In this document: positions 10,645-12,494 of the stretch, one piece after another
How the letters are laid out: every line of letters begins with the position of its first letter
Numbering within the stretch: position 1 is the stretch's first letter
DNA from: a virus
IMG/VR virus record: IMGVR_UViG_3300025732_000164
Coordinates: 1 to 32,283 of that record
Reading direction: 5' to 3' (one strand)
Length of the DNA: 32,283 nucleotides
Position numbers and translations under genes: made by a program
Notes under the pieces: model-generated
Databases searched by the model: none
What the model was told of the DNA's origin: nothing
What the model saw: the letters and a program-made list of their open reading frames with translations, nothing else

Positions 10645-11075
10645 TGTCAGCAGTCGACGCCATGAGGACGTACTTCGCGACTTCGTTCGCGTTCTACCTC
10701 AAGACGCACTACTTTCACTGGAACATCGAGGGCGAGAACTTTCCGCAGTATCACAAGCTCCTCGAGGAGATCTACACCGACGTGTACGGTGCAGTCGATC
10801 CCGCGGCAGAGTTCATTCGCACGCTTGGTCAGTACGCGCCAGGCTCGCTCAACCGATTCATCGAGCTCTCTCGAGTCCAGGACACTACGTCAGTCCCAGC
10901 GGCTAGAGACATGATGCAGCAGCTGCTGGCTGACAACTCGAAGGTCCTCGAGACGATCCGCGACGCGTACGACGCCGCTGAGTCCGAGGGCGAGCACGGT
11001 CTGTCGAACTTCCTCGCCGACCGCCAGGCAGCGCACAAGAAGTGGCAGTGGTTCCTGCAGTCGACGATCAAGTAG
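10644..11075 (+). CDS. Dps-like miniferritin
   Basis: This 143-residue protein is a ferritin-like four-helix-bundle member of the Dps family, which oxidises and stores iron in a 12-subunit shell and often protects DNA. The ferroxidase residues are all present with Dps spacing: H25 in HYFHWN, H37, D52 and E56, i.e. 12, 27 and 31 residues apart as in E. coli Dps. The lysine-rich N-terminal tail used by E. coli Dps to bind DNA is missing, so iron/peroxide detoxification is more certain than DNA binding. It overlaps regA by TGATG and is the last gene of the clamp operon. It may protect phage DNA or replication proteins from oxidative damage. Confidence 0.85.
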   Translation: MSAVDAMRTYFATSFAFYLKTHYFHWNIEGENFPQYHKLLEEIYTDVYGAVDPAAEFIRTLGQYAPGSLNRFIELSRVQDTTSVPAARDMMQQLLADNSKVLETIRDAYDAAESEGEHGLSNFLADRQAAHKKWQWFLQSTIK

Positions 11076-11078
11076 TCG

Positions 11079-11107
11079 TTGACATATGGGCCGTCGTGAA
11101 TTATATA
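11079..11107 (+). promoter_or_regulatory. Sigma70-type promoter for hsp20
   Basis: TTGACA (11079-11084), a 17-base spacer and TATATA (11102-11107) within TTATATATAG. Unlike the other seven promoters it has no TGN just before the -10. The expected start is near 11114. Confidence 0.75.
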
Positions 11108-11111
11108 TAGA

Positions 11112-11171
11112 GTAGGCGTCGCCTCCGGGGGCGCCTACCTGACCCTTGCTGAAAACAGGAGGAAAGCAGCA
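11112..11171 (+). promoter_or_regulatory. Candidate ROSE-like RNA thermometer in the hsp20 leader
   Basis: A GC-rich stem (GTAGGCG 11112-11118 with CGCCTAC 11132-11138) is followed by CCTTGCT (11144-11150). That segment can pair with the AGGAGG ribosome site (11157-11162) over a six-base loop, with G11148 bulged out and one U-G pair. This U-U/C-G-C-U versus AGGA arrangement with a bulged G is the hallmark of ROSE thermometers before small heat-shock genes. An alternative stem, TTGCTG 11146-11151 with CAGCAA 11167-11172, would instead cover the start codon. Either could make translation temperature-sensitive. Confidence 0.6.
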
Positions 11172-11636
11172 ATGTACGACAGCACTCTTCGTAAGATGTT
11201 CGACCAGTCCTTCGTCGGGTTCGACGAAGTCTTTGACCGCCTCAGCCGCTTCAGCGGTGACATGAAGAAGGCGATCCCCACCTACCCGCCCTACAACATT
11301 AAGAAGGTCGATGATAACCGGTACTGCATCGAGCTCGCGGTCGCTGGCTTCGGTAAGACCGACATCGACGTCGTGATCGAGGACGGGACTCTCACCATCA
11401 AGGGAGAGACTAAGTCTCAGCCTGAGAACCAGATGTACCTGTTCAAGGGCATCGCGGACCGAGCCTTCAAGCGCACGTTCAACGTGGCCGACACCATCGA
11501 GATCCGCAACGCGGAGCTCATCAACGGCATGCTTCGAGTCTGGCTCGAGAACATCATTCCGGACCACAAGAAGCCCCGCAAGGTCGACGTGACCGAGCCC
11601 GGCGAAGTGACCGGTAAGCAGCTGCTCAACGAGTAG
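11172..11636 (+). CDS. hsp20: Small heat-shock protein Hsp20 (alpha-crystallin family)
   Basis: This 154-residue protein is an IbpA-type small chaperone that holds unfolded proteins in the cytoplasm. The N-terminus (STLRKMFDQSFVGFDEVFDRL) is typical of bacterial IbpA. The alpha-crystallin domain spans about 38-135: PPYNIKKVDDNRYCIELAVAGF, VVIEDGTLTIKGET, and NGMLRVWLENIIP, a variant of the A-x-x-x-n-G-x-L signature. Hsp20 is a recurrent gene in T4-like cyanophages, where a role in virion assembly has been suspected. ATG 11172 follows AGGAGG (11157-11162) by nine bases. C-ending codons suggest high expression. It has its own promoter and a structured leader, and is followed by a hairpin. Confidence 0.93.
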   Translation: MYDSTLRKMFDQSFVGFDEVFDRLSRFSGDMKKAIPTYPPYNIKKVDDNRYCIELAVAGFGKTDIDVVIEDGTLTIKGETKSQPENQMYLFKGIADRAFKRTFNVADTIEIRNAELINGMLRVWLENIIPDHKKPRKVDVTEPGEVTGKQLLNE

Positions 11637-11659
11637 CCAGCCGCGGTGTTTGACTAACT

Positions 11660-11683
11660 GGAGGGGGCGCCTGCCCCCTCCTT
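11660..11683 (+). terminator. GC-rich hairpin after hsp20 (weak terminator or attenuator)
   Basis: GGAGGGGGC (11660-11668) pairs perfectly with GCCCCCTCC (11673-11681) over a four-base loop, followed by only two T. The 3' arm sequence CCTCCT (11677-11682) can alternatively pair with the AGGAGG ribosome site of the next gene (11690-11695), so two mutually exclusive folds exist. Confidence 0.65.
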
Positions 11684-11700
11684 CCAATCAGGAGGATCTT

Positions 11701-11835
11701 GTGCTTAGGGCTATTCTAGAATCTCTGACTCCGTCGCGAGTCAGTCGCCTCGTCTCTGTCTTCAGAGACGCTCACGTACCGTACTCAGTGAGGATGGACG
11801 CTTTCAGGAGCATCGAGCGACTTCGGTGGCAGTGA
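11701..11835 (+). CDS. 44-residue hypothetical basic protein
   Basis: A GTG at 11701 follows a strong CAGGAGGA ribosome site (11689-11696), and the frame runs to TGA 11833-11835. The peptide begins VLRAILESLTPSRVSRLVSV and is Arg-rich and probably helical, with no membrane segment. I do not recognise it. It sits between hsp20 and the lysis genes, so it would be read on hsp20 read-through RNA. The ribosome site can be covered by the 3' arm of the hairpin upstream. Confidence 0.6.
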   Translation: MLRAILESLTPSRVSRLVSVFRDAHVPYSVRMDAFRSIERLRWQ

Positions 11836-11837
11836 GT

Positions 11838-11873
11838 CTTCTCTATAAATAGGTGACAGTCACCTAGGAGGAG
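11838..11873 (+). promoter_or_regulatory. Ribosome-site-sequestering hairpin containing a late promoter
   Basis: The sequence TAGGTGACAGTCACCTA (11850-11866) is a perfect palindrome. Below it, CTTCTCT (11838-11844) pairs with GGAGGAG (11867-11873, two U-G pairs), which is the endolysin Shine-Dalgarno. The AUAAA of the promoter (11845-11849) bulges out. Read-through RNA from hsp20 would form this stem, while RNA starting at about 11857 lacks its 5' arm. T4 lysozyme gene e is controlled in just this way. The palindrome alone could instead be a DNA operator. Confidence 0.65.
11844..11851 (+). promoter_or_regulatory. Late promoter TATAAATA of the lysis genes
   Basis: A perfect T4 late consensus with the expected start near 11857. 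It lies in the 5' arm of a hairpin that would cover the endolysin ribosome site (see the next entry). Confidence 0.88.
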
Positions 11874-11879
11874 CCAGCC

Positions 11880-12494
11880 GTGATCACAGAGCAGCAGCTT
11901 AGAGAGTGCCTCCCTCTAGCAACAGACGAGGCAGTCTATAACTTTGCTCCTGCGATTGCGGCTGCCATGGAAGAGTTCGACATCAGCAACGCTGCACGCG
12001 CCGCCGGGTTCATAGCCCAGTGCGGACACGAGAGCGGCAACCTGAAGTACGTCAAGGAAAACTTAAACTACAGCGCCCAGGGCCTGGCCAAGACTTTCCC
12101 GAAGTACTTCAACGCGTCGAACGCCGAGGCGTACGGGCGCAAGCCCGAGGCGATCGCTAACCGAGTCTATGCCAACCGCATGGGCAACGGTCCAGAGGAG
12201 TCTGGAGACGGCTGGGCGTTCCGCGGTCGCGGACTGATCCAGCTGACGGGCCGGGACAACTACCGAAGGTGCGGAGAGGGGCTTGGAGTCGACCTCTTGT
12301 CTGACCCAACGTACCTAGAGACTCACGAGGGCGCGGCTCGGTCCGCAGCGTGGTTCTGGAAGTCTCACGGCCTCAACGAGGTCGCTGACAGGCACGACGT
12401 CCTCAAGATGACTAAGATCATCAATGGCGGCACGATCGGCCTCGAGGAGCGTAAGCACAACTTCGAGCATGCCCTGAGCGTTCTGAATGGCTGA
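11880..12494 (+). CDS. Endolysin, GH19 chitinase-like lysozyme
   Basis: This 204-residue enzyme belongs to glycoside hydrolase family 19, whose phage members cut peptidoglycan glycan strands. The catalytic region is FIAQCGHESGNLKYVKENLNYSA; E51 in HES is the likely acid, with E60 in the second conserved position. GDGWAFRGRGLIQLTGRDNY is the family's substrate-cleft signature, and AAWFWKSHGLNEVAD and TKIINGG follow as usual. There is no signal peptide or membrane segment, so it needs the holin to reach the cell wall. GTG 11880 follows AGGAGGAG. The late promoter and hairpin upstream should restrict translation to late transcripts. It overlaps the holin-like gene by eight bases. Confidence 0.9.
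   Translation: MITEQQLRECLPLATDEAVYNFAPAIAAAMEEFDISNAARAAGFIAQCGHESGNLKYVKENLNYSAQGLAKTFPKYFNASNAEAYGRKPEAIANRVYANRMGNGPEESGDGWAFRGRGLIQLTGRDNYRRCGEGLGVDLLSDPTYLETHEGAARSAAWFWKSHGLNEVADRHDVLKMTKIINGGTIGLEERKHNFEHALSVLNG

Follow-up and report, generated by a model that had tools for sequence, protein, structure and literature searches.

Does the short leader of a phage hsp20 gene act as an RNA switch, and if so, to which class does it belong? The question is raised by the window, referring to the whole 32,283-base stretch of the IMG/VR virus record IMGVR_UViG_3300025732_000164, in which T4-type replication genes surround the leader site (Pfam, PHROG). A gap of 96 bases separates a ferritin-like gene (stop at 11075) from hsp20 (11172-11636) and contains, in order, TTGACA, TATATATA, hairpin I and hairpin II with an AGGAGG Shine-Dalgarno sequence. 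The original prediction, made without database searches, regarded this gap as a candidate ROSE-type RNA thermometer. As judged from sequence, folding and comparison with relatives, the leader is probably a ROSE-like cis-acting translational switch ahead of the phage hsp20.

The hsp20 leader and its two hairpins

The features of the leader and its gene are as follows.

11112-11138, + strand: hairpin I, GC-rich, with bulged G11121 and loop UCCG; found by folding, and the place of most of the alignment covariation
11144-11162, + strand: hairpin II, CCUUGCUG (11144-11151) with CAGGAGG (11156-11162), bulged G11148, Shine-Dalgarno sequence masked; from the sequence, folds and RNAalifold on 49 leaders
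11157-11162, + strand: AGGAGG Shine-Dalgarno sequence, read in the sequence
11146-11172, + strand: alternative stem, 11146-11151 paired with 11167-11172 and extending to the A of AUG; six of six pairs in the window, and specific to it
11172-11636, + strand: hsp20, small heat-shock protein of 154 amino acids (Pfam PF00011, E=5.4e-16; PHROG 432, E=8.8e-39)

The pairing of CCTTGCT with AGGAGG around one bulged G, on which the prediction was built, proved exact both in the sequence and in ViennaRNA folds, and comprises C11144-G11162, C11145-G11161, U11146-A11160, U11147-G11159, C11149-G11158 and U11150-A11157 with G11148 bulged, while an extra pair G11151-C11156 closes an AAAA loop. Hairpin II was recovered by ViennaRNA in folds of both 87 and 99 nucleotides (nt), at -5.6 kcal/mol at 37 C. 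The GC-rich upstream stem said to complete a multi-hairpin leader is present as well, namely hairpin I at 11112-11138, which covaries in relatives; positions 11112-11120 pair with 11130-11138 and then 11122-11123 with 11128-11129, G11121 is bulged (ViennaRNA), and the energy is -18.8 kcal/mol at 37 C.

The leader thus carries the features by which ROSE-like elements are recognised: a 3'-proximal hairpin in which U(U/C)GCU pairs imperfectly with the Shine-Dalgarno sequence and a G is bulged; a stable upstream hairpin in a two-hairpin layout, ROSE-like elements having two to four hairpins; and a small heat-shock gene downstream. The strand opposite the Shine-Dalgarno sequence is CCUUGCU, which lacks four U, and identity with a fourU thermometer was rejected on this ground.

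Could such complementarity ahead of one gene be mere chance? In random sequence composed like the window's, about 0.6% of 17-nt stretches contain a 7-mer of this kind, and CTYGCT-N3-9-AGGAG is expected 0.38 times per strand in random sequence of the window's length. At that rate of 0.6% and with some 30 genes, the core in the window alone is suggestive only. Chance is nevertheless refuted by conservation in held-out searches and by covariation, and its probability is negligible, since a covariance model built without the window (R2, below) matches 11103-11177 at E=1.7e-5.

Conservation, covariation and held-out searches

Relatives were collected as the Hsp20 loci of 80 viral contigs plus named phages and read upstream of the gene. 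In 84 of the 86 leaders that extend 40 nt or more upstream, a regular expression found the U(U/C)GC core ahead of the Shine-Dalgarno sequence, the two misses being L044 (variant CCUGCC) and L055 (element further upstream). The next base is U, giving U(U/C)GCU, in 82/86 (not in L026 and L079), and the core G and C are present in every alignment row. In L055 (2412-2727), L233, L324, L229 and L325, a small first gene, phasin-like or rubredoxin-like on sequence reading, lies between the element and hsp20. As read from this gene order, the element is the head of a two-gene operon in these five.

RNAalifold on 49 leaders found the pairing of the anti-Shine-Dalgarno strand with the Shine-Dalgarno sequence unaided. 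In a MAFFT alignment of these leaders, 83.5% of the cells were paired, versus 72.8% after shuffling and 45-53% after sliding, and double changes occupied 83 cells, versus 32 shuffled and 19-33 slid; a model-fitted alignment, which leans to structure, gave 91.0% and 126, respectively. The covariation lies mostly within hairpin I. At the outer core pair of the MAFFT alignment, C-G occurs 24 times, U-A 7 and A-U 5, and at the wobble position U-G 31 and C-G 18, while the other core pairs scarcely vary, as expected beside a fixed Shine-Dalgarno sequence.

The 49 leaders also bear on the competing stem, which the prediction had offered as a fold that would cover the AUG instead. Its complementarity in the window is a perfect six base pairs, and in this respect the prediction was accurate, but at -4.9 kcal/mol it is less stable than hairpin II (-5.6 kcal/mol). 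Among 48 scored leaders (one of the 49 has no recognised core) it is complete only in the window, the other 47 making 1-4 of the six pairs. It was therefore rejected as a conserved feature and is probably incidental; that it is the working fold is highly unlikely.

Two covariance models were built: R1 from 49 leaders, and R2 from 48 with the window excluded. L055, whose element heads the phasin-like gene, L001, which is a copy of the window, and near-copies with three or fewer differences were kept out of training. R1 matches on training loci are not independent; the held-out material comprises the R2 tests, 80 cellular loci and the contigs with dnaK or groES, some of which are near relatives of training rows. 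R1 gave one match in each of 89/91 sources, at the hsp20 leader or operon head, and the two misses were the ibpA controls introduced below. On the window, R2 matched 11103-11177 with 29.1 bits (E=1.7e-5) and nothing else up to E=10. Of 80 viral hsp20 loci outside the training set, 77 gave the leader at E<0.01 with R2; of the misses, L501 and L509 begin at the gene and L465 shows the element by eye. In 13 further named phages (12 cyanophages and Pseudomonas phage Ettore) R2 matched the leader in all 13, with Ettore weakest (E=0.015) and one extra match on the opposite strand of L526 (E=0.03). The Ettore record (L534, OR805294.1; Arenbergviridae, host P. aeruginosa) bears the leader ahead of hsp20 at 906-973 with 19.0 bits and the variant core UUGCG. 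In P-HM1 (L533, NC_015280.1), the annotated hsp20 start (944) falls inside the element at 930-1000, and an ATG at about 995 fits better.

Whole-record searches decide against a constitutive late mRNA leader, in which hairpin I would stabilise the 5' end, the Shine-Dalgarno sequence would merely be strong and the opposing pairing would be incidental. Such a leader would accord with the late-promoter-like box directly upstream and with the weak sequestration predicted in several relatives. However, each of 10 phage records searched whole gave a single strong match, at the hsp20 leader (E<=4.9e-5), with the next best anywhere at E=0.59, and a generic late leader was rejected on this basis. The confinement of the element to chaperone genes, with one significant match in each of the 10 records, U(U/C)GCU in 82/86 leaders, the core G and C in every row and the compensatory changes at the outer core pair all make the constitutive explanation improbable, and a ROSE-like switch is retained.

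Promoter context, chaperone targets and cellular relatives

Two promoter-like features precede hairpin I.

11079-11084, + strand: TTGACA, possible -35 hexamer, 17 nt before TATATA, noted by eye
11102-11109, + strand: TATATATA, T4-late-promoter-like box, also a possible -10; noted for the excess of TATAWATA and for a like box in relatives

A sigma-70 promoter scan found nothing in 10900-12000, the TATATA failing the scan's rule. TATAWATA occurs at six sites in the window versus 0.04 expected. All five window copies of TATAAATA lie on the + strand, three of them (11844, 23063 and 29274) a short way ahead of open reading frames. From this excess and placement, a T4-late-type box is probably in use in the window's phage. 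By pattern search, a late-type box lies ahead of the leader in 25 of 50 phage relatives, a set that excludes the window copy L001, versus 3 of 40 cellular loci, whereas a sigma-32-like box pair is found in 16/40 cellular and 0/50 phage loci. The sigma-32 promoter that accompanies ROSE in the proteobacterial small heat-shock unit is thus absent from the 50 phage loci, and the window carries TATATATA. On the best reading of these patterns, the leader is uncoupled from sigma-32, which the phage's own promoter would replace.

The element is also found ahead of other chaperone genes. A scan of viral contigs with two DNA-only patterns derived from the leaders gave at least 120 sites for each pattern, at least 240 in total. 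Among the 240 matches listed, the next gene is hsp20 in 206, and in 16 hsp20 lies within 900 bases behind a small gene, phasin-like or rubredoxin-like in those that were read, so that 222/240 point to hsp20 and 228/240 to a chaperone target (hsp20, groES-groEL or dnaK). The remaining 18 listed matches comprise six at dnaK or groES-groEL, nine at contig ends, one phasin-like near a contig end (L214) and two that are chance-like (L262 and L294). The dnaK targets are on L121 (4892-7770), L159 (3485-5471) and L185, and the groES-groEL targets on L119 (3843-7751), L150 (5407-7391) and L163 (3803-5774). Pfam identified ClpX, Cpn10, Cpn60 and Hsp20 on L119, Hsp70, Hsp20 and ClpS on L121, Cpn10 on L150 and Cpn60 on L163, while DnaK of L159 and L185, GroEL of L150 and GroES of L163 were named from sequence alone. 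R1, to which these contigs were unseen in training, scored the six dnaK and groES leaders at 27.0-53.0 bits.

L119, L121 and L185 bear two elements apiece, in the order clpX, element, 14-codon open frame, groES, groEL, element, hsp20 on L119 and element, dnaK, element, hsp20, clpS on L121. The 14-codon frame (L119, 5125-5250) begins at the expected AUG and may be a leader peptide, or groES may be reached by coupling. Phage-type genes accompany two of the contigs, a DNA ligase and a tail-fibre-like gene on L163 and a ribonucleotide reductase and a DNA ligase on L119; the viral origin of L121, L150, L159 and L185 rests mainly on IMG/VR classing, the first three with weak or auxiliary-gene matches. 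The arrangement suggests a multi-gene chaperone regulon in some phages.

Marine alphaproteobacteria, with many SAR11 among them, make up most of the closest cellular Hsp20 relatives. At E<0.01 the phage-trained R1 found the leader in 67/80 cellular loci, missing mainly SAR324, other non-alphaproteobacterial and truncated loci. Some of the cellular contigs (L340, L343, L345, L348 and L350) group with the Hsp20 of pelagiphages, and these may be phage fragments that were binned with metagenomic cell sequences. When 12 cellular genomes were searched whole, the hsp20 leader ranked first in every one, below E=0.001 in 11 and at 0.0148 in the twelfth, and the next-best match anywhere stood at E=0.036; with second matches so weak, simple copying from those genomes does not account for the phage dnaK and groES elements.

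The original prediction had also raised a captured host regulatory unit. This remains plausible insofar as marine alphaproteobacteria share the leader, but the Hsp20 tree gives no direction of transfer: it mixes phage and cell groups, with at least two phage/cell changes forced by supported branches, and five of its rows are long-branched. The window Hsp20 lies within a supported set of 28 phage rows (96/95), and direct capture from a host was not adopted. Taken together, the cellular matches, the tree and the promoter patterns suggest that the leader moves between, or was retained in, phages and marine bacteria, and that the promoter differs.

In the window, the leader is neighboured by genes for clamp-loader subunits, regA, the Dps/ferritin-like gene, hsp20, endolysin, holin and a family-B DNA polymerase, and the assignment of the window protein to the Hsp20 family is clear from its profile matches. 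A nucleotide search of the neighbourhood against named phages returned 226 records, the best 40 of which all match the endolysin part only, with no near-identical named phage among the matches listed. A second GC-rich inverted repeat (GGAGGGGGC...GCCCCCTCC) lies 3' of the hsp20 stop, at 11660-11700, followed by another AGGAGG.

Class placement, proposed temperature response and possible autorepression

The class of the leader was sought with the Rfam models. In a permissive search of 11000-11300, ROSE_3 was the best of 4227 families, at full length with 17.9 bits (E=0.19), and a search with ROSE_3 singly gave it as the sole window match (E=0.0048). Under the lax limit, ROSE_3 also matches each of 14 control genomes, always below the cut-off, and a sub-threshold match in a whole genome therefore means little alone. 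On the loci of 11 relatives, ROSE_3 gave four matches, each exactly ahead of hsp20, with 24.3-32.2 bits (best E=0.0087). ROSE_2 (RF01832) and the rhizobial ROSE model, which we take to be RF00435, gave no match in 11000-11300 even at E<=10. As positive controls served two UNVERIFIED records with Pseudomonas-type or E. coli-type ibpA and ROSE elements, L089 (OQ572409.1, "Pseudomonas phage Y7") and L090 (MG065691.1, "Campylobacter phage A11a"), whose ibpA content is probably host contamination; the Pseudomonas-type leader scored 69.2 bits with ROSE_3 and the E. coli-type leader 100.4 bits with ROSE_2.

Several results weigh against a ROSE-like switch. At gathering thresholds, Rfam found no match in the window and no ROSE family in the loci of 20 relatives, the ROSE_3 cut-off of 43 bits lying far above the 17.9 of the window. 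With the phage model, the ibpA leaders of Pseudomonas and E. coli reach no more than 9.1-9.2 bits, in matches close to the expected positions. Double changes occur at one of the six core pairs only, the outer pair, which is unpaired in 16/60 sequences, and the conservation of the anti-Shine-Dalgarno strand could partly reflect the fixed Shine-Dalgarno sequence. Several relatives are predicted to be mostly open at the Shine-Dalgarno sequence (L082 at about 80%), and nearest-neighbour energies do not set the leaders apart from the starts of 21 other window genes. The low scores on the ibpA controls show a phage branch distinct from the Rfam families, the two not being mutually recognisable. The original prediction had staked itself on ROSE covariance models and on conservation in relatives, and the outcome is divided: motif, bulged G, two hairpins, covariation, chaperone specificity and a very strong conservation in held-out searches speak for a ROSE-type leader, while the score remains below the Rfam cut-off. 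The element is best read as ROSE-like by its mechanism-defining motif and as a phage or marine branch outside the Rfam ROSE families.

The nearest known system is the short ROSE-like element of Pseudomonas ibpA (PMC3669281; RF02523, ROSE_3), with which the phage leader shares two hairpins, U(U/C)GCU masking the Shine-Dalgarno sequence, G-C pairs flanking the core, a small heat-shock gene downstream and, with the ROSE_3 structure line, a bulge in hairpin I before CC/GG. The untranslated region is 61-62 nt in Pseudomonas (PMC3669281); a transcription start near 11112-11115 would give the phage one of about 57-60 nt. The phage leader differs in its score (17.9 bits versus 69.2 for the Pseudomonas type), its phage gene, its late-type box in place of sigma-32 and its own hairpin I consensus, GCC-NNNN-GG. 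Enterobacterial ROSE_2 and rhizobial ROSE have the same core and role but three to four hairpins (PMC3669281), as against two. Cyanobacteria, the phylum that many of these phages infect, also have a thermometer ahead of a small heat-shock gene, hsp17, yet it is a single hairpin with a 1x3 bulge (PMC4477652), whereas the cyanophage leaders are two-hairpin and ROSE-like. ABC transporter genes can likewise be headed by ROSE-like and ROSE-G elements (PMC11342760, PMC12857270), which share the bulged G and, in the ROSE-like ones, UUGCU; motif searches have located ROSE-like leaders ahead of other genes as well. These systems differ in being cellular and in serving transporter genes, and no word beginning with "phage" occurs in the available text of either paper. 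Lambda cIII, the SPbeta blyA fourU and a Caudoviricetes sigma-70 fourU are phage leaders with temperature-controlled translation, none of which is described as a ROSE-type or chaperone leader in the available part of PMC11182007.

How would the switch work? Transcription from the late-type promoter would begin just before hairpin I, which may act as a stable 5' cap helping hairpin II to fold, as Pseudomonas work suggests. In hairpin II, CCUUGCU would mask AGGAGG in a helix weakened by the bulged G and a U-G wobble; with the Shine-Dalgarno sequence so masked, Hsp20 translation is proposed to stay low until the helix opens. In the Pseudomonas element, hairpin II alone senses temperature while hairpin I stays closed, and a stabilised core abolishes the response (PMC3669281); PMC11342760 reports that deletion of the bulged G lowers heat induction and that a further U-to-C change abolishes it. 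By analogy, the same sensing by hairpin II is inferred for the phage leader, and heat opening would be the most likely trigger. Of the bacterial heat-shock circuit, the phage would thereby retain the part that acts on translation, with its own promoter in place of sigma-32. Nearest-neighbour calculation over 10-50 C predicted the unpaired share of the leader's Shine-Dalgarno sequence in the window to rise from 8% at 25 C to 24% at 50 C, and that of the Pseudomonas control from 4% to 25%. Thermodynamic melting was rejected as proof of a temperature response because of the missing separation from the 21 other gene starts, a comparison of 28 starts of which 7 have no recognisable Shine-Dalgarno sequence.

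A second possible trigger is misfolded protein, which would sequester Hsp20 and lift its self-repression. The leader might even be mainly an operator for Hsp20, with autorepression persisting until misfolded or unassembled protein, such as the late flood of virion proteins, titrates Hsp20 and with heat as one trigger among others; we consider this possible but somewhat less probable than not. E. coli IbpA binds the 5' untranslated region of its own mRNA and represses it, R93 being irreplaceable and an aromatic residue at 34 needed (PMC10474464). At the position equivalent to R93, the window protein has R, as do 30/30 cellular Hsp20s and 36/37 of the other phage ones (the exception has K); all 15 aligned proteins retain the YPPYN aromatic residue, and the timing of a late-type promoter is compatible with autorepression. 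On the other hand, conservation of R93 may be structural, the window protein has T where E. coli IbpA requires K98, binding of Hsp20 to the leader is putative, and the same kind of leader before dnaK and groES would require action in trans.

The widest interpretation joins the cis-acting switch with this autorepression in a phage chaperone regulon: in nearly all marine phages of the T4-like kind, a sigma-32-free ROSE-like leader under late-type promoters would gate hsp20, and in some also groES-groEL and dnaK, Hsp20 would repress the leaders, and the switch would read the load of misfolded or unassembled virion protein plus heat. As a whole, this remains speculative and rather doubtful.

No report of a ROSE element in a phage was found among the papers listed by the literature search, most subscription papers and all preprints lying outside its scope. 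The element would add to the RNA thermometers of phages one that is widely conserved, and to ROSE a branch missed by Rfam cut-offs. For hsp20, a cyanophage core gene whose role has been guessed as scaffolding during capsid maturation (PMC3037559), a conserved translational switch makes regulation testable by heat, infection or virion-protein load. The phages with this leader seem to have a heat- or stress-gated control of chaperones of their own, which bears on the warming response of marine phages and SAR11 bacteria.
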